Source of the DNA: a virus
IMG/VR virus record: IMGVR_UViG_3300032118_001817
Location: 1 to 39,323 of that record
Strand: one strand, 5' to 3'
DNA: 39,323 nt
In this document: positions 4,605 to 36,196 of the stretch, in pieces
Position numbering within the stretch: position 1 is the stretch's first letter
Layout of the letters: each line of letters begins with the position of its first letter
Program-made: the position numbers and the translations under genes
Notes under the pieces: generated by a model
What the model saw: only the letters and a program-made list of their open reading frames with translations
What the model was told of the DNA's origin: nothing
The model's database searches: none

Positions 4605-5612
4605 TTATATTGTTGTGAAACTTATTGTATGATCTGCTTCCATTTCTATTCCATCACCTGAAGTAGCTTCTTCATATACCGTTACAGTATATACAGTTCC
4701 TGAAGTCAAATTTTCATTCGGAGTAATCGTCACTGTTTTCGACGTTGAGTTCCAAACAACTTCATACCAAGTATAAGGATCAATGTATAAATTATCATTA
4801 GTCATGTCCTCGTTCATAGCAATATTAAATGCAATTACTATTCCAGATTGTACAGGATAACTTATAGCATCATCTACTGGAATAGTGTAACTTACAGAAG
4901 GTGTTGTTGCAACTAATCCACTTCCACCATCTTTACAATCTCTATAGTCAGTATTTGCATATGAAAATAAAGCTACCTGCATATCATCAACAGGATGTAT
5001 TCCATCTCCATCAAGAACAAGATTATGAAAATAAATTTTAAGATCATGCTGAATACAATTAATTCTACCTACTCCAAGTTGTTGTTCAAGTTCAAATGCA
5101 TACATTCCTTTAACTGGCTGTGGATCAAAGTCTACTAAGATTGGAAAAGTAGTAGTAACTCCATTCAATACAATTGGAACTTCAAGTAATGTCTTCTTTA
5201 AATCTCCAATTTGAAACTTTGTCCATGCTTCCATATAATCGTGTCCTGTATTAAAGATAGACATCATAGGAATTGTGAATACAGAAGGCATTGAGTTTAT
5301 TACAGCATTATAAGTATCATCATAAGTTATTTTTAAAAAAGCATTTGGAGCAAGTTTACTCATGTCAGTTTCTAATTCACCAATAGAATAAACAGTAATA
5401 GGAAGACTAAAATTTGTTGCTTTTGTTATCTTTGAAGCTACACGAAAAGCATTATTAGAAATATCTGCAAAGATAAATCTACTTGTCTTTGATGTAGCGT
5501 ATGCTTCAGTAGTATATAAAACTTCTGTACATATGTAAAGCCTAATTCTTTCGAGTATAGGCTCAATTAAAGCTGGATATGATGTTGATGTTGGAAAATA
5601 ATTTGTAGGCAA
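4605..5612 (-). CDS. Virion-type protein with C-terminal bacterial Ig-like domain
   Basis: 335 residues from a TTG start at 5610-5612, preceded by AAAGGGG at somewhat long spacing; no better ATG is available. Residues about 235-335 form an Ig-like Big_5 domain: VPVDDAISYPVQSG, AFNIAMNEDMT, VTITPNENLTSGTVYTVTV and ISFTT. The N-terminal 230 residues are beta-rich and unrecognised (for example IYFHNLVLDGDGIHPVDDM). It shares domain order with the next gene at 3736-4596, so the pair probably arose by duplication. Likely a structural or decoration protein of the particle. Confidence 0.7.
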   Translation of the reverse strand: MPTNYFPTSTSYPALIEPILERIRLYICTEVLYTTEAYATSKTSRFIFADISNNAFRVASKITKATNFSLPITVYSIGELETDMSKLAPNAFLKITYDDTYNAVINSMPSVFTIPMMSIFNTGHDYMEAWTKFQIGDLKKTLLEVPIVLNGVTTTFPILVDFDPQPVKGMYAFELEQQLGVGRINCIQHDLKIYFHNLVLDGDGIHPVDDMQVALFSYANTDYRDCKDGGSGLVATTPSVSYTIPVDDAISYPVQSGIVIAFNIAMNEDMTNDNLYIDPYTWYEVVWNSTSKTVTITPNENLTSGTVYTVTVYEEATSGDGIEMEADHTISFTTI

Positions 5613-7923: not shown

Positions 7924-7959
7924 TAAAAATACACCCTCTTCAGAGGTGTGTTACTTGAC
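7924..7959 (-). repeat. Repeated leader hairpin, copy 1
   Basis: Minus-strand GTCAAGTAACACA, then CCTC-TGAA-GAGG within a longer imperfect stem ACAC/GTGT, then ATTTTTA. A near-identical element is at 33073-33107. In both places it lies just behind a gene end and ahead of the next gene: a terminator, attenuator or processing site. Confidence 0.6.
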
Positions 7960-7991
7960 TATAATATATACAAAAAGTCTAAAAAATTAAA
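7959..7991 (-). promoter_or_regulatory. TGTATATATTATAGT promoter-like element before the helicase gene
   Basis: Minus-strand TTTAATTTTTTA, then seven bases on TGTATATATTATAG. One of five related elements; the hairpin leader at 7924-7959 starts right after it. Confidence 0.55.
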
Positions 7992-9332
7992 CTACACATT
8001 TTCTTCTGTTTGATTCTCCTCTATGTCTTCAACCTGTTCATCTAATAATTTAGTCTCTCTTAAATAAAAAGCGTTACATTTTAGCTTCCAACTTTCAATA
8101 CCTAAAGACTCCTTCCTTATTACTATTCCCTCGGTTGGAACAATATTCTTATTATAAACACAATTTTCTTCCATGTGAAAATTTTTATCATTTGCTAATT
8201 TTTCTAAAAATTGTTCTCTCCATAAAGTCAAATCTTCTGTATTTATCTCCTTATATAAATCTTTAGCAAGTCCATAATACAATTCAATAACTGGTTTTAA
8301 TCCTTTTTGTTTACACCACTGCTGAACTTGTCTTGCAGAAAATTCATGAACTATTCCTACTGCTGAAATTGTAGTAATTCTATAAATGTAAATATCAAAT
8401 TTTCCTTGTTCACATCCATAATCATAATCTTTTTGTATCATCTTACCATCAGATAAATATCCCACAATTTCATAATATAAAGACATGCCTGCATCTATGT
8501 ATTCTGATAAAACATTATTAGCTCTACCCCAGATGTCCTCCGAATAGTAATGTTGTTTATTATTTATATCTTCATTTTTTATGACTTTACGGGAACTATA
8601 TATCATATCATACTCTGTAGTTTGTATCTTAACTTTTAAAAGCAACAATAACTTTTCAAAAATAGATAACTTACGTTTACATAATATCTTAGAAGAAATC
8701 CCTGAACAGCCATGAAACTTTGCAGTGATCTGGAGTAAGTCATCTAGAAATATTCTATCTATATTTCTCTTTATCATCTCAGTATCTTTATGAAAAACAA
8801 ATTGCCCGGGAATTATTTTAGATATTTTTGCTTTTCTTCCTTTTTTACTTCCACTCATTCCTGGTTGTTTATTTCTTATAATATACTTTTCACATATTTT
8901 AGTATCATCTATATGGTCAAATTGTTTTCCTATTTCAAGTTCTAATTTTTTTATATTTGTACTATAGGGCATAAATTCATTAATCATAAAATAAATGCTA
9001 TCAATTGGAATAAAAAACCCTTCTGATTTATTACCTCTGAACTTCACACATCTTACTCTACCATTCAGTTCAAAAAATCCTTTCTTAGTCGTATCAGCAT
9101 TTAGAGTAGTGTCTCTATATAAATTATTTACTTTTAAAAAGTCTTTACTTATAGAGCATTCAACCGGGAAATAAATGCCGATATCTCCTATCTTACAATC
9201 TTTAGAAACAATAACACTGTTTCCAAGTATGAGTGCATGCTGAATATTATCACAGTTCTCTAATGGAACTAATTTTTCTATTTTAACAATTACAGCAGAA
9301 TAATTTATATTTCCCTTAAGATTGAACTTCAT
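7992..9332 (-). CDS. RNA ligase, DRB0094/Rnl5 family
   Basis: 446 residues. The N-terminal half (1-130) matches the OB-like domain of this family (ENCDNIQHALILGNSVIV; GDIGIYFPVECSIS; KGFFELNGRVRCVKFRG). The nucleotidyltransferase domain has motif I KFHG with the AMP-accepting Lys205, motif III-like SLYYEIVGY (284-292), motif IV EGIVIRKE (401-408) and motif V WKLKCNAF (415-422). It would seal RNA breaks through ligase-AMP and RNA-AMP intermediates; in phages such enzymes can repair RNAs cut by host defence nucleases. That defence role is an inference. AAAGGAG ribosome site and a TATAAT-containing promoter element lie just upstream. Confidence 0.9.
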   Translation of the reverse strand: MKFNLKGNINYSAVIVKIEKLVPLENCDNIQHALILGNSVIVSKDCKIGDIGIYFPVECSISKDFLKVNNLYRDTTLNADTTKKGFFELNGRVRCVKFRGNKSEGFFIPIDSIYFMINEFMPYSTNIKKLELEIGKQFDHIDDTKICEKYIIRNKQPGMSGSKKGRKAKISKIIPGQFVFHKDTEMIKRNIDRIFLDDLLQITAKFHGCSGISSKILCKRKLSIFEKLLLLLKVKIQTTEYDMIYSSRKVIKNEDINNKQHYYSEDIWGRANNVLSEYIDAGMSLYYEIVGYLSDGKMIQKDYDYGCEQGKFDIYIYRITTISAVGIVHEFSARQVQQWCKQKGLKPVIELYYGLAKDLYKEINTEDLTLWREQFLEKLANDKNFHMEENCVYNKNIVPTEGIVIRKESLGIESWKLKCNAFYLRETKLLDEQVEDIEENQTEENV

Positions 9333-9350
9333 ATTTTTCTCCTTTATTAA

Positions 9351-9383
9351 TTATAATATAAACAAAAACTACAAAAAATTAAA
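9351..9383 (-). promoter_or_regulatory. TATAAT promoter-like element before the RNA ligase gene
   Basis: Minus-strand TTTAATTTTTTG and then TGTTTATATTATAATTA, followed by AAAGGAG and the ATG. Same family as 7959-7991. Confidence 0.55.
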
Positions 9384-10317
9384 TCCTTTTATACTTAATT
9401 TTCTGAAATAACACATTTTTTTCTTTCTTCATAAATGGTTCATAATCTAAATCTAAAGCATCATAAAAAAATTTCAAAGCACTTGAGTTCTGCTTACAGT
9501 CAAATATATTATCTTTAATATCAAAATCAAGAGGAGCAAAGTCTACAAGTTGTAAGTTCTTTCTCACATCTCTTTCATTTTCTTTTAACTTAATTTTCCA
9601 TTGCTGAGGATAATCTGTTTTCCATAAACCTTTGTATAAATCTTCTACACTATTAAACTCATTCACAATTCTTATCAATAACTCAGAAGGTAAATATGGA
9701 ACTGCATTTTCTATATTATCGCTTGCATCTCCATGTATTGCTTTATATAATTGTATCTTTTCACATATTGCAGGATACTTATACTCTTCTTTAAAATCTT
9801 CTTGATTATATAGCTTATGATAATTCCACCAGTACACATGTTCTGATAATGATAAATTTCTAGCCCAATCAAGATCATTTGAAATGCAAAGACACTTACT
9901 CTTTTTATCTAAATTCAAAGAAGAGATAATAGGCAAAGTAAGATCATCAGCTTCAAGTGATTCACATTGTACAATCTTAAAATTGTTAGAATAGTTCTTT
10001 AACACTTCTATAAAAATATTTAGAGTCTGATAAAGGCCCTTTGGTGCGTTGCGTTTAAATCTATGTGACTTATAATTACAATCTATAAAACGTCGTATAT
10101 CTAATACAGAATTGGGATTATCAAGAACAAGGTATAGAATAGAACTGTCATATGCAAATATATTTTTTATATGTTCTATTCGTGTCAAACTTTCACGAAT
10201 GGCTCCGGGAAAAATGTCATAATCTTTTCTAACAAAAAACTTCTTAAGTGAAACCGAGAAGCTCCGCCAAAAATTGTTATTTAAATCGATTATTATATAT
10301 TGAAATTTATTATTCAT
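9379..10317 (-). CDS. 5'-3' exonuclease / flap endonuclease-like
   Basis: 312 residues with PIN-like 5'-3' exonuclease motifs: IIIDLNNNFWR with Asp11, EADD (122-125), ISNDLDW (145-151) and HGDASDN (195-201), the last being the GDxSDN helix-hairpin-helix motif. These acidic residues bind two metal ions. It probably removes RNA primers and processes flaps during replication, like T4 RNase H or T5 D15. It overlaps the end of the GIY-YIG gene by eight bases and starts after AAGGAT. The C-terminal 80 residues are Lys-rich and match nothing I know. Confidence 0.85.
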   Translation of the reverse strand: MNNKFQYIIIDLNNNFWRSFSVSLKKFFVRKDYDIFPGAIRESLTRIEHIKNIFAYDSSILYLVLDNPNSVLDIRRFIDCNYKSHRFKRNAPKGLYQTLNIFIEVLKNYSNNFKIVQCESLEADDLTLPIISSLNLDKKSKCLCISNDLDWARNLSLSEHVYWWNYHKLYNQEDFKEEYKYPAICEKIQLYKAIHGDASDNIENAVPYLPSELLIRIVNEFNSVEDLYKGLWKTDYPQQWKIKLKENERDVRKNLQLVDFAPLDFDIKDNIFDCKQNSSALKFFYDALDLDYEPFMKKEKNVLFQKIKYKRI

Positions 10318-11080
10318 TTATATTATCCTTATTTAAAAATCTTTTTTCATAAGCTTTTCTTCTATTTTTTGTCCATTCCCCACCCTTTTTTAAAGTACTT
10401 AATTTCTCTGCTCCCAATTTAACACTTTCATTTGTTTCTTTAGTTAATCCTTTATTCCATGCAATTTGATTAAAATGATAACATTCTTGTGAACAATAAA
10501 TATTACCATAAGTCATAAAATTATTTCCACAGGTGGGACAAACTTTTTCAACTTTTTTACTTTTCTTAATTTTTGTTTTATTAAGTAATGCTATTTTTTC
10601 TCCTGCTTGTTTAAGACGAATGTCTGTATTTTTTGTTAATCCCTTATTCCAGGGTATATTTCCAATCTTTCCTTTACTTATATTTTTCTTTGCTTCTTCT
10701 GTTTTTGGCCCGCAAGTACCTTCTCCACCTTTAGTTCTATTATATCCATAAATATTGTCTTCATGTTCTCCATCAGCACCAAAGCTTCTATAAAAATAAA
10801 TTGCTTCTTTTTCTGATTCACATAATTCTTCAAAAGAATAACAATATCCTAAAATTCTCCATATAAAATTATGGACACCATATTTCCTAATAGCATTATA
10901 AAAATATTTTCCATTTTTATTATTTTCTGAAATATCATTTAAACTTAATGCCTTTTTAAAATGATTTTGAATATACTCTTTATGTTCATAAGTAGTATAC
11001 CCTATATACTTTTTATGATTTTGTATATTCTCAATTAAATATATACAACCATAACAAACATTACTTTTTTCATCTAACAT
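10310..11080 (-). CDS. GIY-YIG homing endonuclease with WNKGLTK repeats
   Basis: 256 residues when started at ATG 11078-11080, which has GAGG eight bases upstream. A longer reading from a TTG at 11278 is open but its extra 66 codons run through the structured RNA at 11184-11267 and are unlikely to be protein. The GIY-YIG core begins CIYLIENIQNHKKYIGYTT. Later come two WNKGLTK repeats (IPWNKGLTKNTD, IAWNKGLTKETN) with a CPTCG...CSQEC zinc motif between them: NUMOD3-like DNA-binding modules. A similar repeat set occurs in the gene at 23906-24682. It is a free-standing selfish gene next to the exonuclease. Confidence 0.85.
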   Translation of the reverse strand: MLDEKSNVCYGCIYLIENIQNHKKYIGYTTYEHKEYIQNHFKKALSLNDISENNKNGKYFYNAIRKYGVHNFIWRILGYCYSFEELCESEKEAIYFYRSFGADGEHEDNIYGYNRTKGGEGTCGPKTEEAKKNISKGKIGNIPWNKGLTKNTDIRLKQAGEKIALLNKTKIKKSKKVEKVCPTCGNNFMTYGNIYCSQECYHFNQIAWNKGLTKETNESVKLGAEKLSTLKKGGEWTKNRRKAYEKRFLNKDNINE

Positions 11081-11147: not shown

Positions 11148-11183
11148 TCTGGTTGAGGTAATCTTACATTATTTTTATATAAA

Positions 11184-11267
11184 TGAGCAGAAACAGGAGT
11201 AACGACGAGGTTCTTAGGTAGGTTATTTTCTACACCCCTGCTTTCGGCCATCAAACCTATCTGCTCA
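11184..11267 (-). ncRNA. Candidate structured RNA, copy 1
   Basis: 84 nt that can fold as: P1 of 8 bp (11184-11191 with 11260-11267), P2 of 6 bp (AGGTTT with GAACCT), a 7-bp helix P4 (CAGGGGT with ACTCCTG) that crosses P2 and so makes a pseudoknot, and a 4-bp hairpin P5 (GTAG/CTAC) between them. CGAAAG is conserved with copy 2. It lies between genes 11284-11742 and the GIY-YIG gene, 103 bases before that gene's start. Strand is inferred from transcription of the region. I cannot place it in a known riboswitch or ribozyme class. Confidence 0.7.
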
Positions 11268-11283
11268 CTTATAATCAAATTTA

Positions 11284-11742
11284 TTATTCCCCTTCTGATT
11301 TTGTAACTGTTTCTAAATAGCCAATAGCGCGAGATAATTTTTTTACGAGTTCGATATCCTCTTTTGAGAAATTAACTCCCTCATTATTTTTATTCTTCTG
11401 CAAAGCTTGTAAGAAAGCATGATCTTTACTTGCTGAAATAATACTTATCATCAGATCGTTGTCGCCTTTGTCTAAAATTTCGAGTAAATGAATAAGAGCA
11501 TTTGTTGATATTTCATTCCCTTCAGTATCATCATCAATTCTCAATTTTATCTTATCTATAACAGAATCTTTTAAAGTATATTTTGATGAAGCTCTTTCTA
11601 TCTGATTATTTAAAAGCTTAACGAGATTTAAATCTCTTGTATTATCAATCTCTTCAGCATCTCTACTTTTTTGTGACTCTGATGTTGCTAAAACTTTATC
11701 AATCAAAGTCATGTCTATATTATTTTCTTCGTTTTCTGCCAT
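11284..11742 (-). CDS. Unknown acidic helical protein
   Basis: 152 residues, mostly charged and helical, with an acidic N-terminus (MAENEENNIDM). No family recognised. It overlaps the upstream gene by 23 bases, so the two are probably translated together, and it is the last gene before the structured RNA at 11184-11267. A role as terminase small subunit or scaffold-like protein could fit size and charge but nothing in the sequence proves it. Confidence 0.55.
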   Translation of the reverse strand: MAENEENNIDMTLIDKVLATSESQKSRDAEEIDNTRDLNLVKLLNNQIERASSKYTLKDSVIDKIKLRIDDDTEGNEISTNALIHLLEILDKGDNDLMISIISASKDHAFLQALQKNKNNEGVNFSKEDIELVKKLSRAIGYLETVTKSEGE

Positions 11743-17286: not shown

Positions 17287-18738
17287 TTAAAAGAATTTTT
17301 TAAGTTTACCCGCTCTATATTCATAGATTCTTTCTTCAGCTATTTTTATATATTCTGGATTTAATTCTATTCCTACATAATTGCAATCTTCTTTAAGAGA
17401 TACTAACCCTGTAGTTCCTGCACCCATAAAGGGATCAATCACAATGCCAGATTCCCACCCTGCATTACACCCACAATCTGATAATTCATAAATTACTGGA
17501 TTATTTTTTCTCCATTCTTCATATTTAGAATTAGTTACCCACCCTATTAAACTGCCACATTGCTTTTTATCATTCTTTTCCCCATCTAAATATGTTTTAC
17601 AGAATTCTGGTATCTTTTCTGCTACTCTAATAGGCTCTCTTGCTTTACCACATTTCTTACATATAAACTTAGGGCAACCTGCTTTAATGCAGGGAATTAT
17701 AAGCTCTTCCGGAAACGTGGCAAAGTGGGCTTCGGAATATGAATGAGTGTTTACTGTCCAGACGGAGCGTTTATTTCTTTTACCGTCAGGCAAGGGTATA
17801 TCGCTTTCTTTTTTAAACCCCTCTATTTTTTCTTTTGGTCTAAAAAAGTTTTCTTTAGAATTATAATTTAATAATCTATTTCTTGTTACTCCATTAGGTC
17901 GGCAGGCTTTCATATTGCCATTTGTTTTCCCTGGCACACGGTCACTTCCTTTTTGATTCTCAATATCTTGCATAAGCCTTGCAATAGATGAATTTGAAAT
18001 TGGTTCTTTTATCGCCTCGTTATCATAATAATATTTCTGAGACTTGCTCATTAAAAAAATATACTCATGGCTTTTTGTGCATCTGTCAGTCACTCTTTCC
18101 GGCATCGGATTCGGCTTGTGCCAGATTATATCTTGCCGGAGATACCAGCCATCAGTACGAAGGGTAAAAGCGACCATCCACGGGATGCCAATTAAATCTT
18201 TATTTTTCAATCCAATGCTTTTAAGCATTTTACTATTTCTGGAATTGCTTTTGCCTTTTTCAATAATATTTGCAGTCTCACTTTTCCCGCCAACCCTTAA
18301 ACTATCGGATACTGATTTGCAATCTTTGTGAGCTGAATAAGTGTCCCCTAAATTAAGCCATAAAATCCCATCATCCTTCAGAACTCTTTTAACTTCTCTG
18401 AATATCTCAACCATTTTTAAGACGTATTCTTCTGGTGTTTCTTCTAATCCTATTTGATAATCTACTCTAATAGCCCCACACATATTACAAATTGTTTTAT
18501 ACCCTATTTGATTTGTACCTTTATTTGAAACTTGTTTAACATTTTCTCCTATATCATTAACTTGTAAATGATTACAATTTTCGTCCCCTCCTTCCCATTT
18601 TGCAGTTCCATAATCTCTTAAACCATAATAAGGTGGAGAAGTTACACAACAATCAATACTATTATCAGGAATTTGTTTTAATACTTCTAAACTATTTCCT
18701 TGTAAAATTTTATTTTTTATATCTTTTATTTCAAACAT
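17287..18738 (-). CDS. DNA methyltransferase (N6-adenine or N4-cytosine), SPPY type
   Basis: 483 residues. ILQGNSLEVLKQIPDNSID leads to the catalytic TSPPYYGLRDYG (about 32-43) and the SAM-binding DPFMGAGTTGLV lies near the C-terminus with IELNPEYIKIAEERI, so motif IV comes before motif I: the beta-type order. The SPPY form is common in N4-cytosine enzymes. Between them two cysteine pairs (CNMCG; CKKCG) and another at the C-side suggest zinc sites in the target-recognition part. It overlaps the end of the DNA polymerase gene by 13 bases with GGAG ahead of the ATG. Its G+C-rich patches (17700-18350) differ from neighbours and suggest acquisition from another source. Confidence 0.9.
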   Translation of the reverse strand: MFEIKDIKNKILQGNSLEVLKQIPDNSIDCCVTSPPYYGLRDYGTAKWEGGDENCNHLQVNDIGENVKQVSNKGTNQIGYKTICNMCGAIRVDYQIGLEETPEEYVLKMVEIFREVKRVLKDDGILWLNLGDTYSAHKDCKSVSDSLRVGGKSETANIIEKGKSNSRNSKMLKSIGLKNKDLIGIPWMVAFTLRTDGWYLRQDIIWHKPNPMPERVTDRCTKSHEYIFLMSKSQKYYYDNEAIKEPISNSSIARLMQDIENQKGSDRVPGKTNGNMKACRPNGVTRNRLLNYNSKENFFRPKEKIEGFKKESDIPLPDGKRNKRSVWTVNTHSYSEAHFATFPEELIIPCIKAGCPKFICKKCGKAREPIRVAEKIPEFCKTYLDGEKNDKKQCGSLIGWVTNSKYEEWRKNNPVIYELSDCGCNAGWESGIVIDPFMGAGTTGLVSLKEDCNYVGIELNPEYIKIAEERIYEYRAGKLKKFF

Positions 18739-21286: not shown

Positions 21287-21955
21287 TTATAAGAATTTTT
21301 TAGTATTAGATATTTCTACTTTTTTCTTTTCAAAAAATGGTTTAGTCTGACATTTCTTCCAAGCATCAATTCTGTCATTAATTATCTTTACATATTCAGG
21401 CTCTTTCTCTACCAGAATATAGTTGCGTCCTGTTTCAAGGCAGGCGATTGCAGTTGTGCCACTTCCGGCGAACGGGTCAAATATTGTCATGCCGGGCTGT
21501 GAATAATTTTGCAATATCCACTGAAACAAGGCAACTGGCTTTTGTGTTGGGTGTTCTTTTTTTTGGTTTTTTAATTTAATAATTTTTGCATTTTTATCAA
21601 AACTGCACCATGCTTGTTCACACATGGCAAGAGAAAAATCTTCCGGTATTTTTTTATCCCATACTAAAAAACATCTTGAGGGCGGCAACTCAAAATAATT
21701 ACCGCCCCATATAATTTGATTTTTACTTATTCTAAATATTTCATCAAAATATATTTTATCCGGTTTTACATCCCATCCAATATTTACTATTTCTTTAAAA
21801 TTCATTTTGGAATTTAGACCACTTTTGAATTTATCTCCTATCCCATACGGCGGATCGGTTAAAACTAAATCAATGCACTTGTCCGGCATGGACTTCATAA
21901 AATCTAAACAGTCCATACAATGGACAGTATTTAATATTTCATTTATTTGATACAA
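21287..21955 (-). CDS. DNA methyltransferase, DPPY type
   Basis: 222 residues from a TTG at 21953-21955 preceded by GGAAGG; a longer frame to 22000 overlaps the HNH gene without need. Catalytic motif IV is [11 protein letters not shown] and motif I is [19 protein letters not shown] followed by [15 protein letters not shown], again in beta order. [14 protein letters not shown] is typical of adenine-N6 methylases of this type. It may protect phage DNA from host restriction or from the adjacent HNH enzyme. It overlaps that HNH gene by 13 bases, so the two could form an HNH nuclease/methylase pair. Confidence 0.88.
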
Positions 21956-22272
21956 TATATTTCCTTCCCTTTTGGTTTTTTTGCGTGACACTTTTTGCAA
22001 AGAGTAATACCATTATCAATATTGAATCTAAATTCTGGAAATAAAGCAAAGGGCTTAATATGGTGAGCTTCTATCCTACCTCTAAAGAGGGTGTATCTTT
22101 CTGGCAATTTATGGTAAAATAATTCTTTTTTAATATATACAACGCAAACATCATCACTTTCATACCCATAAGAATCTAAATAACATTTTAAAACAACTTC
22201 ATCTTTAAGATTCATTGATAAGATATGAAGGTCATCAAAATTAAAAGTAATAAATGTTTCTTCTTTTTTCAT
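21943..22272 (-). CDS. HNH endonuclease
   Basis: 109 residues. The C-terminal part has the HNH core: [30 protein letters not shown] and KK, with the His pair, the Asn and the CxxCH zinc part expected of a beta-beta-alpha-metal nuclease. The N-terminal 55 residues are unrecognised and could recognise DNA. AAGGAGTAGG precedes the ATG. It may be a free homing nuclease or the nuclease half of a small restriction-modification-like pair with the overlapping methylase. Confidence 0.8.
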
Positions 22273-23598: not shown

Positions 23599-23617
23599 AC
23601 TAATTTTCTCCTTCCAT

Positions 23618-23653
23618 AATTATAATATATACATAAATACTAAAAAGTTAAAC
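23618..23653 (-). promoter_or_regulatory. TGTATATATTATAAT promoter-like element
   Basis: Minus-strand TTTAACTTTTTA and TGTATATATTATAATTATG, with GGAAGGAG after it; precedes the 83-residue gene at 23598. Confidence 0.55.
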
Positions 23654-23834
23654 TACTTTTCTTATAATTTATTTTATTTCCACAATGAGGACATTTATCA
23701 TCTTTTGCTTGGTACAAAAAATCACATGCACCACAATAGATACAATAAGATGATTTTACTCTTTTTCTCCAATTTAAAATTAAATTTAAAATAGTAGGAA
23801 ATTTTATATATGCTTTTATTCCCATACAAGACAT
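23640..23834 (-). CDS. Small zinc-ribbon protein
   Basis: 64 residues. YCIYCGACDFLYQAKDDKCPHCGNK gives CxxCG and CPHCG pairs of a zinc ribbon; the N-terminal half is basic (ILNWRKRVKSS). The weak ribosome site leaves the exact start uncertain: Met4 is possible. It follows the 35-residue membrane ORF by two bases. Function unknown. Confidence 0.6.
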   Translation of the reverse strand: MSCMGIKAYIKFPTILNLILNWRKRVKSSYCIYCGACDFLYQAKDDKCPHCGNKINYKKSSLTF

Positions 23835-23835
23835 A

Positions 23836-23943
23836 TTAACTTATACACCAAAGAATACCACAAACTATAAATATAACAATAATTACAACTATATTTGTAA
23901 GTGTTTCATTTATTTTTTCTTGTTGTTCTAGTGTAATTCTCAT
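23836..23943 (-). CDS. 35-residue single-pass membrane peptide
   Basis: ATG at 23941-23943, preceded by AAAGAGAAT; ends TAA two bases before the next gene. The first 17 residues are polar (LEQQEKINETLTN), then IVVIIVIFIVCGILWCI forms one clear membrane segment. It overlaps the last 38 bases of the GIY-YIG gene in another frame. Probably a real small membrane peptide of unknown role. Confidence 0.5.
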   Translation of the reverse strand: MRITLEQQEKINETLTNIVVIIVIFIVCGILWCIS

Positions 23944-24682
23944 AATTATTCTCTTTTTTACTTTTTACTTTTCTCATTTTATCTTTAGACTCTTCTGACA
24001 CAATATGCCCTACTAATGCAATAGATATATTTTCTGCATTTTTCTTTACTCGTTCATCTGTTTCTTTTGTTAATCCTTTATTCCATGGTGGTTTTCTCTC
24101 TCTTGATTTTGAAATATTTTTACCTATATTTTTTAATCTTTCATCTGTTTCTTTTGTTAAACCCTCATTCCAGGCTTTTTTTCCTTTATTTTTTTTAGAA
24201 ATATTTTTACCAGCTTTTGCCACCCTTTCATCTGTTTCTTTTGTTAACCCAGTATTCCAAGATTTTCTATTACAATTAATTATTTTTCCATGCCTTTTTG
24301 TTTTATTTGTTAATATGCCTGTACCATCATATATAGTACCAAAATGTAAAATTAATTTATGTTCAAGATCATACGCTTCCTTTTGTGTCATATGGTCTTT
24401 TAATCTATAAAAATGAAATAAACTATCATCATTACTTAAATCATTAAAATAATTAAGTTTATAAATATTTTTTTCTTTATTTAAATTTTTAATATGAGAT
24501 TCAATTCTTTTTCCACTTCCTTTACCTATATAAAAAGGTTTACCAAAAATAAGAATAGGATAATTATCTATAAAAAAACTATAATAAGTCTCATAAGGAA
24601 GTTCTTTTAATAAAATCTCTAAAGATAAGTCTACATACACATAAACATAAAATCGTCTGTCTTCTAATAAAGTATTATTCAT
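23906..24682 (-). CDS. GIY-YIG homing endonuclease with three WNxGLTKETDER repeats
   Basis: 258 residues. FYVYVYVDL and, after an insert, KPFYIGKGSGKRIESH form a GIY-YIG core of the COG3680-like type. EAYDLEHKLILHFG supplies the catalytic Glu region. Residues about 135-230 hold three tandem modules: WNTGLTKETDERV, WNEGLTKETDERL and PWNKGLTKETDERV, NUMOD3-like DNA-contact repeats. The same module is in the GIY-YIG gene at 10310-11080. The gene is inserted between nrdD and a run of small genes, and its position next to nrdD is typical for phage homing genes, which favour conserved nucleotide-metabolism genes. Confidence 0.85.
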   Translation of the reverse strand: MNNTLLEDRRFYVYVYVDLSLEILLKELPYETYYSFFIDNYPILIFGKPFYIGKGSGKRIESHIKNLNKEKNIYKLNYFNDLSNDDSLFHFYRLKDHMTQKEAYDLEHKLILHFGTIYDGTGILTNKTKRHGKIINCNRKSWNTGLTKETDERVAKAGKNISKKNKGKKAWNEGLTKETDERLKNIGKNISKSRERKPPWNKGLTKETDERVKKNAENISIALVGHIVSEESKDKMRKVKSKKENNYENYTRTTRKNK

Positions 24683-27371: not shown

Positions 27372-27373
27372 TT

Positions 27374-28660
27374 TTAACCTATCTCTGGCAAGAAATCCCC
27401 TTCCTTCAGGTGGGGGATGAATTGCCAGTTATTATTATAACTTACTTTCTTTATATTTGAAAAGGATACTTGCTTATATGATTTTTCTGGCAATGTTATA
27501 TACTTTCCAAAAATATCTTTTATATAGCAAGCATTGGTTGTGAATCCAGAAATGAATCCTATTTTTTTATAAACGTTTACTTGATCATTTAGGGTAAATC
27601 CATTCAATGATTTAGTATTCTTTGAATTTCTTACCGATAATGTATTACCTTTTTTTCTTTTTCTGGCTGTTGCTTCATGCAAACTTCTTTTTTTCTTCCT
27701 AAACTGATTTATAAAAAAAATAGAATCAGGATTTTCTTTTATTTGTTTAATACCTGTTATAGCTATTGCATCATTTACATGAGACTTATCTAAATTTAAG
27801 TCACATCGATTTTGAAAAGTTATATTTCCATAAGTAAAGTCAGCATTAGGAAAGATAGTTAATAATCGTCTTCTTATTATATTCATAAAAGTTGAATCTT
27901 TATATGATTTTGATTTCTGTTTTCTTAAAATGTCTTCTTCATGTTTTACATGAATTTCATCATGACATTTTTCATGAAGTAGTGCCCAATCAGATGGTCT
28001 ATCTTTTTCTTTACCGAAAATATGATGGAGTCTCCAGCCATTATTTTTTTGGTATTCTTTATCACAGTATTGACATTTTCCTTTTTCTCTTGCTATCAAG
28101 TAAGCTATTCTATTTCTGTATTCATACATTGTACCTTGCTGATAATCTTTTCCTTCTATTGAGGGGTTCTCAATTTTTTGAATATCAAATTTAGCTGCTT
28201 CAATACTTAATTTACACTTAGGTAATAAGTTATAAAATTTATTTATCCACATCACTGTATTATCTATTCTACTTTGAATTGACGGTGGTAACCATCCTTC
28301 TTTTTTAGAAGCAGTCCTATTAAGAAACCTTGCTTGCCTATAACGAGTAGTTCTATTTCTTCTCGATCTTCTCAATATTTTTCTTGTTTCCAATAATTTT
28401 GAAATATCTTGTCTAAGATCAATCTGACCTTTTGCTAACACATTATTTCCAGAAGTTATAGCAACTCCTACGTGTTTAGAACCAACATCTATACCTAATC
28501 TAGTTTCTTGCTTATAACCAGAAGAACCATAAAGTAATTGAATTGTAAATGGTTTATAATCTACAATTTTTGCTTTTTCTTCTTTAAGAAGCAATCTTGC
28601 TTTTCTTGTGCTGCAAGGCATCAATGCCTCCCCATGCTTGTTAATTACGAAAACTACCAT
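27374..28660 (-). CDS. iscB: IscB RNA-guided endonuclease
   Basis: 428 residues with the full IscB order: PLMP domain (VFVINKHGEALMPC), RuvC-I LGIDVGSKHVGVAI (Asp58), Arg-rich bridge helix (about 94-114, RRSRRNRTTRYRQA), RuvC-II LSIEAAKFD (Glu154), HNH (C196-x2-C199, LHHIFG with H212-H213, then LLHEKCHDEIH), RuvC-III SHVNDAIAI (about 297-305) and a C-terminal TAM-interacting part ending IPHLKEGDFLPEIG. In HNH the usual CxxC second pair reads HxxC. Guided by the omega RNA at 28661-28896 it would cut the empty target site. AAAGGAGG precedes the ATG. The last residues are encoded by the transposon left end and the TAA stop lies in the target sequence. Confidence 0.95.
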   Translation of the reverse strand: MVVFVINKHGEALMPCSTRKARLLLKEEKAKIVDYKPFTIQLLYGSSGYKQETRLGIDVGSKHVGVAITSGNNVLAKGQIDLRQDISKLLETRKILRRSRRNRTTRYRQARFLNRTASKKEGWLPPSIQSRIDNTVMWINKFYNLLPKCKLSIEAAKFDIQKIENPSIEGKDYQQGTMYEYRNRIAYLIAREKGKCQYCDKEYQKNNGWRLHHIFGKEKDRPSDWALLHEKCHDEIHVKHEEDILRKQKSKSYKDSTFMNIIRRRLLTIFPNADFTYGNITFQNRCDLNLDKSHVNDAIAITGIKQIKENPDSIFFINQFRKKKRSLHEATARKRKKGNTLSVRNSKNTKSLNGFTLNDQVNVYKKIGFISGFTTNACYIKDIFGKYITLPEKSYKQVSFSNIKKVSYNNNWQFIPHLKEGDFLPEIG

Positions 28661-28896
28661 TAAGTTTTCCTCCTTTCGGATTTGTTACCCATCCACAAAG
28701 TTATAAAGACTTTACTAAATGAGGTTGACTAAGAGTTTCCTCTTTGTTTACAGCGCCTCGATAGAGCCACAGACTTGGGTACCATCTGTAGGTATCATCA
28801 TCTAAATAACGTAGGTCTCAAAGACCTTGGTGTAGTCAACTAATTACTCTCAAACGTTGCCGTTCAAGCCCCTTCCTTTAGGGAGGAGTAATTGAC
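27378..28896. mobile_element. IscB-carrying IS200/IS605-type element (1519 bp)
   Basis: The left end (plus-strand 27378 onward) begins CCTATC and has the subterminal hairpin AAATCCCCTTCCTTCAGG...GATGAATT, nearly identical to the left end of the TnpB element. The right end on the plus strand reads CCCCTTCCTTTAGGGAGGAG and ends TTGAC at 28896. The element sits directly after TTTAA (27373-27377). No tnpA. The nuclease gene runs right-to-left relative to left/right ends, opposite to TnpB, as expected if IscB guides come from the right-end flank at the RNA 5' side. Boundaries were inferred from comparison of three elements and from reading-frame restoration, so they could be off by a base or two. 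Confidence 0.85.
28661..28896 (-). ncRNA. IscB omega RNA (HEARO-type)
   Basis: This 236-nt non-coding stretch upstream of iscB is more G+C-rich than its surroundings and full of inverted repeats, for example GGTCTTTGAGACC at 28814-28826 and AATTACTC near the start pairing with GAGTAATT some 45 bases later. It occupies the place of the omega RNA in known IscB loci. The guide should be the flanking 16 or so bases at its 5' side, 28897-28912, reading ATAAATAGACCTTATT on the minus strand. The 5' boundary equals the inferred transposon right end; the 3' end may overlap the iscB ribosome site. Confidence 0.8.
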
Positions 28897-28987
28897 AATA
28901 AGGTCTATTTATTGTAATTCCTACAGAATCAGCGTCTACTTCAAATATAGGCCAAAAAACAATTTGATAATTTTTAAGTATACTCAT
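28850..28987 (-). CDS. Small phage ORF, its 3' end altered by the IscB element
   Basis: ATG at 28985-28987 overlaps the end of the ClpP-like gene and has a strong AAGGAGG site ten bases upstream. Residues 1-30 (KNYQIVFWPIFEVDADSVG is its core) are phage-encoded; residues 31-45 (CQLLLPKGRGLNGNV) are read from the transposon right end. Joining the flanks at the inferred TTTAA site gives a codon for Phe and then TAA, so the original product would be 31 residues and lost only that Phe. Function unknown; being the second gene in the clp-nrdG string it may be part of a conserved cluster. Confidence 0.6.
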   Translation of the reverse strand: MSILKNYQIVFWPIFEVDADSVGITINRPYCQLLLPKGRGLNGNV

Positions 28988-29621: not shown

Positions 29622-30321
29622 CTGATAACCTTTCTTTTCTAATATTTTTTATAGAGTCCAAAAAGTGTAGTTGTAAAAAATTACGATCTAATAAATCAAA
29701 TAAAAAACTACCATAGTTTTGTTTAATCATGTCTAAAGATAAATTTGAAGTAATTACAAAACGTTTATGTGCATAAATTAATTCTCTAAAAAATGTGTCT
29801 AATTCAGACACTATTAATTCCCTACTTGACTCTTTTTTCCATAACAAAGATTTATTTGGATCAAAACAATCATCAAGTATAATTATATCTGCTGATTTTA
29901 ATTCATTTATTCTACTATCAGCTTCTTCATCTCTATGAAATCCTTGAAGCTTCATAATGAAATTAACAAAAGAACCGAACAACATAAACTTAACAGATAA
30001 ACCCTTCTTAATACATCCCTTTCCAAAATTACAAGCACAAGCAGTCTTTTGTGTACCTGTTTCTGATCCCCATAAATAAAGATTTATATCTCTAAATTTT
30101 TCTTCTTGAATTCTATCTACCATTACTTGAAGCTTATGGACATTTTCTCTTGAAAGATCTCCTATATAATCTATAAATTCTACATTATGATAAAATTCAG
30201 GAATATTACTTTTATTAAGAAATAGTTGAAATTTCTTTTTATCCATAGCATTCCAATATTCTTTATTTGGAGCTGCATACTCTTCATCATTTATCTTTAC
30301 TATGTTATATTGTTTTGTCAT
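29602..30321 (-). CDS. DnaC-like AAA+ helicase loader
   Basis: 239 residues. LYLWGSETGTQKTACA (82-97) is the Walker A loop, GTQKT rather than GxGKT; DIIILDDCFD (145-154) is Walker B, followed by LIVSELDTFFRELI, and FVITSNLSLD is the sensor-1 strand. The order and size fit helicase loaders of the DnaC/IstB type that deliver the DnaB-like helicase (6518-7909). The ATG at 30319-30321 has no ribosome site and its promoter-like element ends two bases before it, so the true start may be Met26 (GGA precedes it). Confidence 0.8.
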   Translation of the reverse strand: MTKQYNIVKINDEEYAAPNKEYWNAMDKKKFQLFLNKSNIPEFYHNVEFIDYIGDLSRENVHKLQVMVDRIQEEKFRDINLYLWGSETGTQKTACACNFGKGCIKKGLSVKFMLFGSFVNFIMKLQGFHRDEEADSRINELKSADIIILDDCFDPNKSLLWKKESSRELIVSELDTFFRELIYAHKRFVITSNLSLDMIKQNYGSFLFDLLDRNFLQLHFLDSIKNIRKERLSDELWKD

Positions 30322-30322
30322 G

Positions 30323-30358
30323 ATTATAATATATACAAAATTTATAAAATATTAAATA
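30323..30358 (-). promoter_or_regulatory. TGTATATATTATAAT promoter-like element touching a start codon
   Basis: Minus-strand TTTAATATTTTA and TGTATATATTATAATC, with the TATAAT hexamer ending two bases before the annotated ATG of the DnaC-like gene. A start point about seven bases downstream of TATAAT would lie inside that gene. Confidence 0.5.
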
Positions 30359-31332
30359 AGATTAATTTTTCCACTTATCAAATCTTTATACTGTTCTTCA
30401 TTAGTCATGCTGAGCCCTGAAGCAGCTGAGTGACCTCCCCCTCCCCACTTTTCTGCAATGTCTTTAACAGAAAATCCTTCTCTTGATCTCAACGATATTG
30501 ATCTATTTTCTATAGCTATCTTAAAAGTACTTCTACAAACCGCATATTGAACATCAGGAGACTCCTTCAAGATACGATTCGATATCACACTGAGTCCACT
30601 TGGTGCTTCTAAATATAAATATTTATTTCCTTGTCCATCAACTCTTATCTTCATATTATCTTTTGCTTTCTTATAGTTTTTATCTTCTTTTTGCTTTTCA
30701 GTAGAAATTATTCTATTCTCTCTAAAATTAAACATAAATCGTTTTGATGATCTAAATTTTTCAAGAATTAAATTTATAAAATCAGAATTTTTTTCATAAT
30801 CAGGAGAATCAAAATATCTTGCCCAATTTATAACTCCCTTCTTAAGATAATTAAGATAATTAGCTTCTTCCCAATCTTCTGTATTATCTAACCAAAAGTC
30901 ATATGTATTTACAAGAGTTGCAAATCTCTGAACCACCCTATCTTTTCTTTTAATTCCTTCAGTAAACAAATTATATAACAACAAAGTCGCACAACTTTTA
31001 TCTGTGTAAAAGTAATTACTAAGTTCTCCTAATATACTCTTTCCAGTTTCATGATGATCAAAAATATAAACATCAATATTTAAGTCCTTTTTTAATTTAT
31101 TATACATTTCTAAAGAATTAGGGGTAATGTCCGTAAAAATAACTATATCTATTTTTTCTTTATCTAATAAATCCCAATTAAAATCTGACATACTCCTTTG
31201 ACCAGTATTTAAAAATATTATTTTATTACATATAGGTTCAATATAATATTTTGCAATAATAGTTGCAGATATACCATCAAGATCACTATCACTCACAAAA
31301 TAGATATTTTTATTTTTAAAATTATTTATCAT
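30352..31332 (-). CDS. DHH-family phosphoesterase (RecJ/NrnA-like)
   Basis: 326 residues with motif I DSDLDG (15-20), motif II Asp68 (FTDITPN), motif III DHH (92-94) and the C-terminal DHHA1 signature GGGGHSAASG. These bind two metals and hydrolyse phosphodiester bonds. RecJ-like exonucleases act on single-stranded DNA and NrnA-like ones on short oligonucleotides; with 326 residues it is nearer to NrnA in size. It has no ribosome site and begins 50 bases after the structured RNA at 31384-31468, which might control its translation. Confidence 0.85.
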   Translation of the reverse strand: MINNFKNKNIYFVSDSDLDGISATIIAKYYIEPICNKIIFLNTGQRSMSDFNWDLLDKEKIDIVIFTDITPNSLEMYNKLKKDLNIDVYIFDHHETGKSILGELSNYFYTDKSCATLLLYNLFTEGIKRKDRVVQRFATLVNTYDFWLDNTEDWEEANYLNYLKKGVINWARYFDSPDYEKNSDFINLILEKFRSSKRFMFNFRENRIISTEKQKEDKNYKKAKDNMKIRVDGQGNKYLYLEAPSGLSVISNRILKESPDVQYAVCRSTFKIAIENRSISLRSREGFSVKDIAEKWGGGGHSAASGLSMTNEEQYKDLISGKINLI

Positions 31333-31383
31333 TATATTTTTTTAAAGAATCTTTTATTTTCTTATTTGATAATCTATTAAAAA

Positions 31384-31468
31384 AATAGACAGAAATAGGG
31401 ATAACTGGAGAGTTCAAGGTAGGATTAACTACACCCCCACTTTCGAGCGATAACTCTATCTGTCTATT
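31384..31468 (-). ncRNA. Candidate structured RNA, copy 2
   Basis: 85 nt with the same layout as 11184-11267: P1 of 10 bp (31384-31393 with 31459-31468), P2 AGAGTT/AACTCT, crossing helix P4 TGGGGGT/ATCCCTA and hairpin P5 GTAG/CTAC. Relative to copy 1, P1, P2 and P4 contain double substitutions that keep pairing, while single-stranded CGAAAG, GGGGTGTAG and CCTACCT are unchanged. It sits in the leader of the DHH gene, whose ATG lies 51 bases on without a ribosome site, so translational control is possible. Confidence 0.7.
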
Positions 31469-31576
31469 ATTAAAAAGCAAAATTAGTTATTTCTCCTTAT
31501 AAATCTATCAATAAACAAAAAATTCTCCTTAAACAAATATATTTTTTGCTATTTACAAAAACTAATCCTTTCTTAA

Positions 31577-31588: not shown

Positions 31589-31636
31589 AAGAAAATATTG
31601 CCCTTAATTAATCTCATTTTAACTAAGGGCAATATT
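31586..31636 (-). terminator. Rho-independent terminator after the 99-residue gene
   Basis: Perfect 13-bp inverted repeat AATATTGCCCTTA (31624-31636 with 31594-31606) with a 17-base loop, followed by TTCTTTTT on the minus strand. Confidence 0.85.
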
Positions 31637-31647
31637 CTTAAAAACTA

Positions 31648-32128: not shown

Positions 32129-32169
32129 ACTTATCATAGTTGTTGCTATTTTTATCTCCTATACTTTAA

Positions 32170-32212
32170 ACGTTACCGTTCAAGCCCCTCCCTTTAGGAA
32201 GAGGTAATTGAC
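32170..32212 (+). mobile_element. Solo right-end remnant of an IscB-type element
   Basis: 43 bp nearly identical to the right end of the IscB element: ACGTTACCGTTCAAGCCCC, the CCCTTTAGG hairpin and the terminal TAATTGAC, preceded by TTTAA at 32165-32169. No left end, gene or remaining omega RNA is present; the partner strand of the omega RNA basal stem (GAGTAATT) is lost. It lies in the last codons of the gene at 32180-32560. Probably the scar of a deleted element, or a minimal mobile derivative. Confidence 0.75.
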
Positions 32213-32560
32213 ATAATGATACCAACATAATGTCTTCAACCACCCATAATCTCTTAACTTCCCTTTTCTCCCACATATCTCACAAATAAAAGCAGAGCGT
32301 TCTTCTGCATCAATTATAAGATGAGGACATACATCATCTCCTCCATTAATATAAAAACGTAAAGTACCAAACTTTTCTTTAACTTGAAGTGCTTGTACAT
32401 CTGTTTGAGTTTTTTCTAAACTTTCACTTAATTTCCATAATAAATTAAACCAACCATCATCACATTCAATACCAAAAAATAAATAATCTATTGGTAATTC
32501 TCCTACTTTATAAATATTAGGGAATCTATTAAATAACTTTTGCTGTAATTTCTGTTCCAT
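32180..32560 (-). CDS. Conserved phage Cys-rich protein, 3' end altered by an IS remnant
   Basis: 126 residues. The pattern FFGIECDDGWFNLLW, QVKEKFGTLRFYI, AFICEICGRKGKL and W-x-KTLC-x-x-H is a common phage protein of unknown role with a zinc-binding ICEICG...C..H set. The last 11 residues (VNYLFLKGGA region) are read from the transposon right-end remnant at 32170-32212. Removing it and joining at TTTAA gives YHY followed by LKYRR and TAA, a natural ending. Function unknown. Confidence 0.7.
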   Translation of the reverse strand: MEQKLQQKLFNRFPNIYKVGELPIDYLFFGIECDDGWFNLLWKLSESLEKTQTDVQALQVKEKFGTLRFYINGGDDVCPHLIIDAEERSAFICEICGRKGKLRDYGWLKTLCWYHYVNYLFLKGGA

Positions 32561-33133: not shown

Positions 33134-33260
33134 GTGAACTACCCTCCCCTAAAGGGAAGGGTTTCTCAGTCGATGCAACTTATGCTTGCAAGCAGTCCTG
33201 AGCTAACCCGGTAGTTCCTACCGTTTTTATTCCTACATTACGAATGTTGATAGCAGCATT
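33134..33260 (-). ncRNA. TnpB right-end guide RNA (reRNA)
   Basis: In known TnpB systems the RNA covers the end of the gene and the right end and continues into the flank, which serves as guide. Here the 3' part holds the hairpin CCCTTCCC-TTTA-GGGGAGGG at about 33142-33163. The guide would be 33118-33133, read GTGATAAGTACGAGAT on the minus strand, the native sequence of the primase 3' end. The upstream boundary is estimated. Confidence 0.65.
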
Positions 33261-34319
33261 GACATCTCTATCGTGACGCTCTCCACATTCACAAATCCAT
33301 TCTCGATCTGATAGTGTCAGGTTGGAGTTGATACAACCACAAACATTGCACATTTTAGAGCTTGGAAACCACTTATCAATCTTATACAATTGTTTTCCTT
33401 GATCTTCTAATTTGTAACTCAAAAATGTTGTAAACATTCCCCAACCATTATCTGAAACGGATTTTCCAAAATTAAGACATTGACTCATTGCTTTCATGTT
33501 CAAATCTTCAATACAGACCAAATCATAATTATCTGCTAATTTCTTACTTTCTTTATGCAGAAAATCTTTTCTTTGATTAGCAATATGCTCATGAACTTTC
33601 GCAACTTTTAATCTTTGTTTCTCATACCGTTTACTATCTGGTTTTCGATGAGAGAAGATTCTTTGTTCTTTTGCTAATTTTTCTTGAGCCAATCTGAAAA
33701 ATCTTGGAAATTTAGCAGAATTTCCTTCTGAGTCAATGTACAGTTCTGGCATGGAAAAATCTAATCCTATTACCTTTTCAATATCTTTTTTGACTACTTG
33801 TGTTTCGTATTCTACAAGTATTGAAATGTAATATTTATTTGTTCTCGTTTTTGATACAGTACATGATTTTATAATACAATTTTCCGGTATAATCCGGTGT
33901 TGTACAAGTTTCACAAACCCCGTTTTAGGTAGTTTAATTTTATTTTCTTCAATTCGGATAGAATCTTTTTGATTATTTGTTGTGTAATTCCAACTACATT
34001 TTTTCTTAGATTTGAATTTTGGAAAACCGAGTTCTTTTTTTCCTTGTTTCACTCGTCTAAAAAAATTATTATATGCAGTTTCCAAATTCATTTGAGAATT
34101 AGCTAAAGCCAAAGAGTCTACTTCTTTTAGAAACTCAAACTCATTTTTATACTGAGCAGGAGTGTTTTTCAAAGATAATTTTGTATCTTTGTAATGTTTA
34201 ATTTTATCAGAAAGCATTTGATTGTAGACAAAACGAGCACAACCTATTGTTCTATCAATAAGATTAGATTGTGCTTTGTTTGGTAACAGTCTAAATTTGT
34301 ATGCTTTATTTCTTTTCAT
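33180..34319 (-). CDS. tnpB: TnpB RNA-guided nuclease of an IS200/IS605-type element
   Basis: 379 residues. Complete TnpB: N-terminal helical/OrfB part (KAYKFRLLPNKAQ; FARF-like GCARFVYNQML), RuvC-I IGLDFSM (Asp187), RuvC-II CIEDLNM (Glu271), a zinc finger CNVCG...CECG (C324, C327, C343, C345) and RuvC-III RDVNAAINI (Asp352). The length and all three acids suggest an active enzyme. It would use the right-end RNA at 33134-33260 to cut the empty insertion site next to a TTTAA motif, restoring the element after loss. No tnpA lies in the element, so mobilisation would need a transposase in trans. Confidence 0.95.
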   Translation of the reverse strand: MKRNKAYKFRLLPNKAQSNLIDRTIGCARFVYNQMLSDKIKHYKDTKLSLKNTPAQYKNEFEFLKEVDSLALANSQMNLETAYNNFFRRVKQGKKELGFPKFKSKKKCSWNYTTNNQKDSIRIEENKIKLPKTGFVKLVQHRIIPENCIIKSCTVSKTRTNKYYISILVEYETQVVKKDIEKVIGLDFSMPELYIDSEGNSAKFPRFFRLAQEKLAKEQRIFSHRKPDSKRYEKQRLKVAKVHEHIANQRKDFLHKESKKLADNYDLVCIEDLNMKAMSQCLNFGKSVSDNGWGMFTTFLSYKLEDQGKQLYKIDKWFPSSKMCNVCGCINSNLTLSDREWICECGERHDRDVNAAINIRNVGIKTVGTTGLAQDCLQA

Positions 34320-34333
34320 ATGTATTCTAATAA

Positions 34334-35482
34334 TCAGGACGAAAATTCATCCCTCACCTGAAGGAAGGGGATTTCTTTTCGAGGACAGGTTAAATACTTT
34401 GAAGCCTTTTTAATTTCTGCATTATTTATATCTGCAATAAAATTTCTACTTGTATCTTCACTTCTTATATCTATTACATATAAATTTTTAATCTGAACAT
34501 TTAAAGACTCTATCATTATCAATGAAGCTTGATCATTATCTGGAATAATAATTTTTCTATTTTTAAATCTGTTCAACAACTCAATTTGTTTTTCAGTTAT
34601 TTCAGAACCAAAAGTACAAGTTACATTTGTAGTAATATTATTGAATATCTTTGGAATACTTCCTATACCTTCACTTATATAAAGATCTTCATTATAATTT
34701 AAATTATCTATATTAAATAATGTTTCATGAATCATAGAATTTGAAGGGTATAATACTTTCTTTTTAAGAAAAAATAGAAATTCATCTCCATACTCTACAA
34801 AATTATTATCTGTTTTTGAAAATACTTTTCCATCTTTTATTTTTAACATATTTGTGTCTATAACTTCTTTTAACACAAAATCATTTATACCTGCTGCTTT
34901 CATTAACTCTCTTTGAGATAATTTCCTTGCTTCAAATGTATATATCTTCTGCTCTGAATCTATTATAGGAACTATAAAATAATCCTTATAATATCCTTCA
35001 ATACATTTCTTAATATTAAATTGATTACAAAAGTCTTTTGTAAACTCTCTTACTCTTGTATAATAGTAGTCTTTTGGATTAAAAGACTCTAATTGTTTTC
35101 CATCTATATAATTAAAATTTGTTTTATTACTTTTTGGTTTACATATTTCTTCTAATTTATTCTTACTTAAAAATGATAAATCATTCACTTGCTTTACACT
35201 ATTAACTATATTATTGGTAACTTTCTCAAACGCTTCTTTATAAGAAATATTTAATTGCTCTTGAACAAGTTTTAAAACATGTTTCTTTTTCTTACAATTA
35301 AAACAATGAATTACCCCAGAATACAAATTAATACTGGAGTTGCCTGTAGATGAATCTTTATGGAAGGGGCAAATTATATTAACCCACCCCTGTGAATTTC
35401 CGAAATTTTCATGATAGATATGTAAAATATCTAAAGCATAAATAATTTCATTAGCTACTAATTCTCTATATTTATTTTGCAT
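34334..35482 (-). CDS. DnaG-type primase, C-terminus altered by the TnpB element
   Basis: 382 residues from ATG 35480-35482; a TTG at 35500 is less likely. The zinc-binding N-terminus has CPFH and CFNC (about 38-41 and 60-63). The TOPRIM part shows YISEGIGSIP (about 268-277) and the acidic PDND (314-317), where primases coordinate metal. After KKASKYL the reading enters the IS left end and adds 18 foreign residues up to VRDEFSS. Joining the flanks at TTTAA continues the frame as SDKYEIFK and TAG, a native protein of about 372 residues. It makes RNA primers for the DnaB-like helicase fork. Confidence 0.88.
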   Translation of the reverse strand: MQNKYRELVANEIIYALDILHIYHENFGNSQGWVNIICPFHKDSSTGNSSINLYSGVIHCFNCKKKKHVLKLVQEQLNISYKEAFEKVTNNIVNSVKQVNDLSFLSKNKLEEICKPKSNKTNFNYIDGKQLESFNPKDYYYTRVREFTKDFCNQFNIKKCIEGYYKDYFIVPIIDSEQKIYTFEARKLSQRELMKAAGINDFVLKEVIDTNMLKIKDGKVFSKTDNNFVEYGDEFLFFLKKKVLYPSNSMIHETLFNIDNLNYNEDLYISEGIGSIPKIFNNITTNVTCTFGSEITEKQIELLNRFKNRKIIIPDNDQASLIMIESLNVQIKNLYVIDIRSEDTSRNFIADINNAEIKKASKYLTCPRKEIPFLQVRDEFSS

Positions 35483-36142: not shown

Positions 36143-36160
36143 ATTATTTTCTCCTTACAT

Positions 36161-36195
36161 AATTATAATATATACACAAATATTTAAAAATTAAA
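36161..36195 (-). promoter_or_regulatory. TGTATATATTATAAT promoter-like element
   Basis: Minus-strand TTTAATTTTTAAA and TGTATATATTATAATTATG with AAGGAG next; precedes the gene at 36142. Confidence 0.55.
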
Positions 36196-36196
36196 C

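Follow-up and report, generated by a model that had tools for sequence, protein, structure and literature searches.

In phage T4, gp32 binds a pseudoknot in the leader of its own mRNA and thereby represses it; this pseudoknot lies 67 nt before the start, and an A+U-rich stretch comes after it (PMC3014915). In addition, hairpins that sequester the ribosome site are known for homing endonucleases of T4-type phages, including I-TevI, mobE, and segB (PMC2988022). Here we describe a predicted structured RNA that occurs twice in a single virus contig of 39,323 bases, the whole of which was analysed and is referred to below as the window. Like the gene 32 operators of T4, T2, and RB69, this putative element is a phage leader pseudoknot, and some tens of nucleotides separate it from a gene of DNA metabolism downstream. 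Unlike those operators, it has a 10 bp outer stem and an embedded hairpin, is larger (85-88 nt), and stands before two different genes; moreover, no gene 32 homologue was seen in the window.

The window contains 27% G+C, and all of its large genes run in one direction. Phage replication genes are present, including those for DNA polymerase, a DnaB-like helicase, a DnaC-like loader, primase, NrdD/NrdG, RNA ligase, and methyltransferases. Two of the DNA methyltransferase genes are related (17287-18738 and 21287-22000), and the conserved motifs of the first are split by a long internal segment, where several families match only the ends of its 483 residues. Copy 1 of the RNA (11269-11182) and copy 2 (31468-31384) are separated by ≈20 kb, and their stems covary. 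Both sequences of the preliminary description were found again, and both lie on the minus strand, which also encodes every large gene of the window. When read on this strand, stems P1, P2, and P4 contain G-U pairs, which fits an RNA of the transcribed strand.

The predicted fold consists of four helices, all given here on the minus strand. P1 (10 bp) pairs AGTGAGCAGA (11260-11269) with TCTGCTCATT (11182-11191) in copy 1 and AATAGACAGA (31459-31468) with TCTGTCTATT (31384-31393) in copy 2, with three double changes between the copies. P2 (6 bp) pairs AGGTTT (11253-11258) with GAACCT (11208-11213) in copy 1 and AGAGTT (31452-31457) with AACTCT (31409-31414) in copy 2, with two double changes. 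P4 crosses P2 and pairs AAGCAGGGGT (11234-11243) with ACTCCTGTTT (11191-11200) in copy 1 and AAGTGGGGGT (31433-31442) with ATCCCTATTT (31393-31402) in copy 2; in its length of up to 10 bp, it has one double change and three one-sided changes that keep pairing. These are the same six double changes that had been counted at the outset. Hairpin P5, GTAG-loop-CTAC (11217-11233 in copy 1; 31418-31432 in copy 2), is invariant between the copies and is therefore uninformative on covariation. In both copies, P1 and P4 each reach 10 bp when extended, and the 3' arm of P4 adjoins that of P1, with one base claimed by both helices in their longest versions. P1 and P4 could therefore stack, and P2 would join the bulge that follows P1 to the strand that follows P5. 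Of the sequence blocks that the preliminary description listed as shared and unpaired, CGAAAG and GGGGTGTAG contain paired bases: GGGGT and the last three letters (AAG) of CGAAAG fall within P4, and GTAG and CTAC fall within P5.

Pairing of P2 requires a one-base gap shift compared to the sequence-only alignment. Because P2 depends on the position of this gap, gap placement was re-optimised in each of 400 shuffles of the variable letters, none of which reached the four-helix score of 34.5 (null mean, 17.0; maximum, 28.0). In a fixed alignment, the best three-helix set scored 26.5, and this value was reached in 0 of 3000 shuffles under either of two nulls. Tested alone, the helices were reached in 183 of 20000 (P1), 179 of 20000 (P2), and 1199 of 20000 (P4) shuffles, and the count for P2 rose to 1173 of 20000 under a looser null in which all arm letters were shuffled. 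By this comparison of the two sequences, the structure taken whole is well supported, whereas support for P2 alone, the helix that makes the pseudoknot, is only moderate (p between about 0.009 and 0.06). Two double changes underlie P2, and one underlies P4. The initial reading of the compensatory changes as a sign of selected structure holds, in that the score lies above all shuffles.

When pseudoknots were disallowed, each copy folded into a nested structure of lower energy (z -3.4 and -2.5), and these were more stable in the energy model than partial pseudoknot folds of either copy. However, the nested rod fold of copy 1 is absent from copy 2, so that support for the pseudoknot is carried by covariation and not by the energy model. 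The pseudoknot itself is a prediction, and the crossing of P2 and P4 inside P1 that was originally proposed stands as such, with P2 as its weaker leg.

Searches with Rfam 15 gave no gathering-score match in the window except HEARO elsewhere, and with E relaxed to 10 neither RNA was matched, in agreement with the first impression that the element does not match hammerhead, HDV, pistol, twister, preQ1, or other familiar small classes. HEARO (IscB omega RNA, RF02033) is likewise a structured RNA with a nuclease ORF downstream of it in the same orientation, but it is a separate element at 28896-28680, and neither RNA copy matches it in Rfam. The IscB gene with the HEARO RNA directly upstream (27374-28896) adjoins nrdG, and a phrog_506 transposase gene (TnpB-like by relatives) is located at 33180-34319. 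The surroundings of the transposase and of IscB are linked by an inverted repeat of 51 nt (27373-27423 and 34344-34394; 86%) and a direct repeat of 46 nt (28852-28897 and 32168-32213; 89%), as if the two elements used related ends.

Scans with exact patterns from independent blocks, which covered 2.9 million viral contigs and 84,980 genomes, returned chance matches only and no third copy, and none of the matches that were inspected or scored had the stems. A covariance model built from the two copies recovered only these copies in the window and no third copy in fetched loci, phages, or sampled genomes, among them 398 of one phylum (positive control included). When both RNAs were compared with phages by BLASTN, and copy 1 also with plasmids, only chance matches appeared, and related-locus searches with the DHH protein described below and with the DNA polymerase found no kin contigs. 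Candidates that were rejected comprise an Aeromonas phage match near an endonuclease, which lies outside the RNA core and is not significant; one record among 40, phage MT835477.1, with a weak model match (21 bits, E 0.014) in which several pairs are broken and GGGG is missing; and an unrelated locus (L031, near 5104-5200) that resembled the element at first sight, containing GATAG..CGAAAG..GGGGGTGTG and then a long perfect hairpin, without partners for P2 or P4. Other classes considered and dropped were type III toxin-antitoxin RNA (no tandem repeats and no toxin), the group I intron core (the element is too short), an anti-CRISPR repeat mimic, and omega RNA. Because the searches for relatives depended on exact blocks or on a two-sequence model, in collections that may leave out close kin of the window, their negative outcome limits the claim of a family without refuting it. 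Further homologues with covariation, on which the preliminary description had made its proposal depend, were found in none of the collections searched, while its proposal of a conserved structured RNA outside Rfam stood. We conclude from the sequence comparison that this is a real, conserved, structured RNA that fits no known family. As a family resting on two copies in one phage contig, it is a well-supported candidate and probably a regulatory element of leaders.

Copy 2 precedes a DHH/DHHA1 phosphoesterase gene (30352-31332, minus strand), whose ATG lies 51 nt after the RNA and lacks a Shine-Dalgarno sequence. The stretch between the RNA and this ATG (31383-31333) is A+U-rich, and no other gene was recognised in the copy 2 leader. 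The DHH ATG is overlapped by a 52-codon frame (31322-31480, minus strand; Shine-Dalgarno AAGGAG, TTG start at 31480) that contains copy 2, which is a layout of translational coupling. A second Shine-Dalgarno sequence and an 11-codon TTG frame (31486-31533) lie directly upstream of the copy 2 frame, and this short frame ends at the beginning of the next ribosome site.

The start of copy 1 lies 14 bases past the stop of a 152-codon gene. Downstream on the minus strand are genes for a GIY-YIG (SegE-like) homing endonuclease (10310-11080), whose ATG at 11080 lies 101 nt after the end of copy 1, and next for a FEN-like 5'-3' exonuclease (9379-10317). Like I-TevI, mobE, and segB, this endonuclease has a hairpin, GATTACCTC...GAGGTAATC (11163-11084, minus strand), that is predicted to sequester its Shine-Dalgarno sequence. 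Here, by contrast, the hairpin is separate from, and 3' of, the pseudoknot RNA, and copy 2 has no endonuclease behind it. The 3' arm of P2 in copy 1 and the loop that follows (ACCTCGTCGTT) are complementary over 11 bp to the Shine-Dalgarno region of the endonuclease (AATGACGAGGT), and this alternative pairing might possibly form a switch. The same complementarity was reached in 27 of 2000 shuffled leaders and was not seen between the P2 arm and loop of copy 2 and a Shine-Dalgarno sequence. A second GIY-YIG homing endonuclease gene (23906-24682), directly behind nrdD, has an 87-nt coding repeat in common with the one at 10310-11080.

The gene contexts of the two copies, originally called unrelated, are not plainly so, and both RNAs lie just upstream of nuclease-type genes. 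Homing endonucleases of this class are usually later insertions. If the one behind copy 1 inserted later, both RNAs would originally have preceded exonuclease- or phosphoesterase-type genes. We infer the link of copy 1 to the exonuclease in this way, as the next gene is the endonuclease with its own sequestering hairpin.

Our preferred reading, held tentatively and with somewhat less than even confidence, is that the RNA is a cis-acting, P1-closed, three-stem H-type pseudoknot in two phage mRNA leaders that controls downstream translation through a bound regulator. A translational leader or operator is the first choice because of the leader positions, the DHH gene without a Shine-Dalgarno sequence, and the phage precedent. 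The pseudoknot would be the putative binding site of the regulator, which may be a phage or host nucleic-acid-binding protein or, less likely, a small ligand. Once bound, the regulator would keep ribosomes from entering, or from moving along the coupled upstream frame, and both the DHH phosphoesterase and the exonuclease would be made only when it is scarce; control of the exonuclease would be the ancestral state, before the homing endonuclease inserted behind copy 1. The change in expression, down or up, would come about by altered access of ribosomes or by coupling to the upstream frame.

Compared to gene 32, both copies have a leader pseudoknot as the predicted fold, 101 nt (copy 1) and 51 nt (copy 2) upstream of the ATGs. 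An A+U-rich stretch before the ribosome site is present after copy 2 and in part after copy 1, where the hairpin follows. The gene behind is not that of the binding single-strand-binding protein, as it is for gene 32; a DHH phosphoesterase and a homing endonuclease with an exonuclease are found instead. By analogy, the element most likely works like the gene 32 operator, and we do not file it as one because the gene behind differs and the binding is putative. Covariation far above shuffles, G-U pairs that fit only the transcribed strand, the leader positions, the absence of codon-position bias, and the complementarity of copy 1 to the endonuclease Shine-Dalgarno region count for the leader role, whereas the occurrence of only two copies in one contig and the absence of a recognised regulator gene, including any single-strand-binding or RegA-like gene, among the ORFs scanned count against it. 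Also against it are the endonuclease that separates copy 1 from the exonuclease, the restriction of that complementarity to copy 1, and the greater stability of nested folds in the energy model. Among the roles suggested at first (riboswitch, ribozyme, processing element, or regulatory RNA), a regulatory leader is favoured, and nothing specific was found for a ribozyme or a small-molecule riboswitch. The broader proposal is possible, though doubtful, that these RNAs represent a new phage regulatory class, in which a shared operator before different nuclease genes is read during translation of a short upstream frame, with one regulator tuning several genes.

The one-way arrangement of large genes over 39 kb, with the two copies both transcribed and 20 kb from each other, would also suit an element of transcription, in which the nascent RNA acts on RNA polymerase in long one-directional operons by processive antitermination, as do HK022 put RNA and the EAR of Bacilli. 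HK022 put RNA is described in PMC9378689 as a phage cis-element that alone suppresses pausing and termination. In the window, a strong intrinsic terminator-like hairpin (31592-31638, minus strand) is present upstream of copy 2. Antitermination would agree with a location of copy 2 downstream of a strong terminator, but copy 2 comes after, not before, the one strong terminator seen. Moreover, a promoter-like repeat (TTTAA ... TGTATATATTATAATTATG) occurs in five copies just upstream of minus-strand genes (7951-7995, 9343-9387, 23612-23656, 30316-30360, and 36155-36199, minus strand; shuffles averaged 0.26), and it lies directly behind both the DHH and the exonuclease genes, so that transcription past each RNA may cover only a short unit. 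HK022 reportedly has two put sites, and the present element is likewise a short structured phage RNA that occurs twice on the transcribed strand; however, its fold differs from that of put, and no terminator arrangement that calls for antitermination was seen. We consider this explanation unlikely.

A single reading frame, the same for the two copies, stays open through each RNA and its flanks, starting from a Shine-Dalgarno sequence and TTG. In copy 1, AGAAGGGG and the TTG at 11278 (11273-11296, minus strand) open a frame that runs through the RNA and continues in frame into the endonuclease, and in copy 2 the frame overlaps the DHH start. This joint openness has a chance on the order of 1e-3 to 1e-4 by a rough hand estimate, and it may reflect passage of ribosomes through the RNA. 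The RNA could then be a recoding or in-frame element that acts during translation by frameshift, bypass, or pausing, or a mobile RNA that is tolerated as the frame stays open. Against this explanation, which we likewise hold to be improbable, by-eye inspection of the 40 nt upstream of both copies found, in the open frame, no slippery heptamer at the distance of 5-9 nt that is typical of a -1 frameshift pseudoknot, the spacing from Shine-Dalgarno to TTG is long (10 and 12 nt), and the frame of copy 1 past the RNA coincides with the regulatory hairpin of the endonuclease. The peptide is not conserved, and no family match or relatives were found for it. The 27 differences between the copies are distributed over codon positions 1/2/3 as 8/10/9, which is no bias, and the coding score within the RNA is near zero, compared to ≈9 for real genes of that length. 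A protein-coding explanation was dropped on the absence of codon-position bias. Together with the shared block CCTACCT, which is out of frame between the copies, these properties imply selection on the RNA and not on the peptide.

A compact stem-closed pseudoknot with conserved joining residues could instead be a small self-cleaving or RNase-processed element that cuts polycistronic mRNA ahead of nuclease genes, and phages do carry small ribozymes, such as the HDV-like theta ribozymes (PMC10879173). This is quite unlikely, since neither RNA matches an Rfam ribozyme even at E up to 10, the helix order is unlike that of HDV in that the crossing helices lie inside an outer stem, P1, no hammerhead core (CUGAUGA) is present in copy 2, and no tRNA was found near the RNA copies; by core and helix order, the element is neither HDV-like nor a hammerhead.

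The H-type pseudoknot with an embedded hairpin is also the architecture of preQ1-II type folds. This resemblance, the leader position, and the alternative pairing of P2 and its loop with the downstream Shine-Dalgarno sequence in copy 1 would be expected of a new class of small-molecule riboswitch. Such an identity is quite doubtful, in that a DHH phosphoesterase and a homing endonuclease with an exonuclease have no obvious metabolite in common, and the wide distribution that is normal for riboswitches and an Rfam match are both lacking. Chance or protein-level paralogy, in which related coding stretches would contain accidental stems, could draw on the common open frame and on 12 identical residues in about 28 between the peptides (hand count), but it is very improbable given a structure score above all shuffles, no third-position bias, the out-of-frame CCTACCT, and the near-zero coding score.

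The two copies provide a natural pair of variants that already contains compensatory changes. If the element proves instead to be a ribozyme or an antitermination RNA, it would represent a new fold for that purpose. If our preferred reading of a translational leader operator is true, it would be a second, architecturally different leader pseudoknot, present twice in one phage, and leader operators would be a broader strategy.
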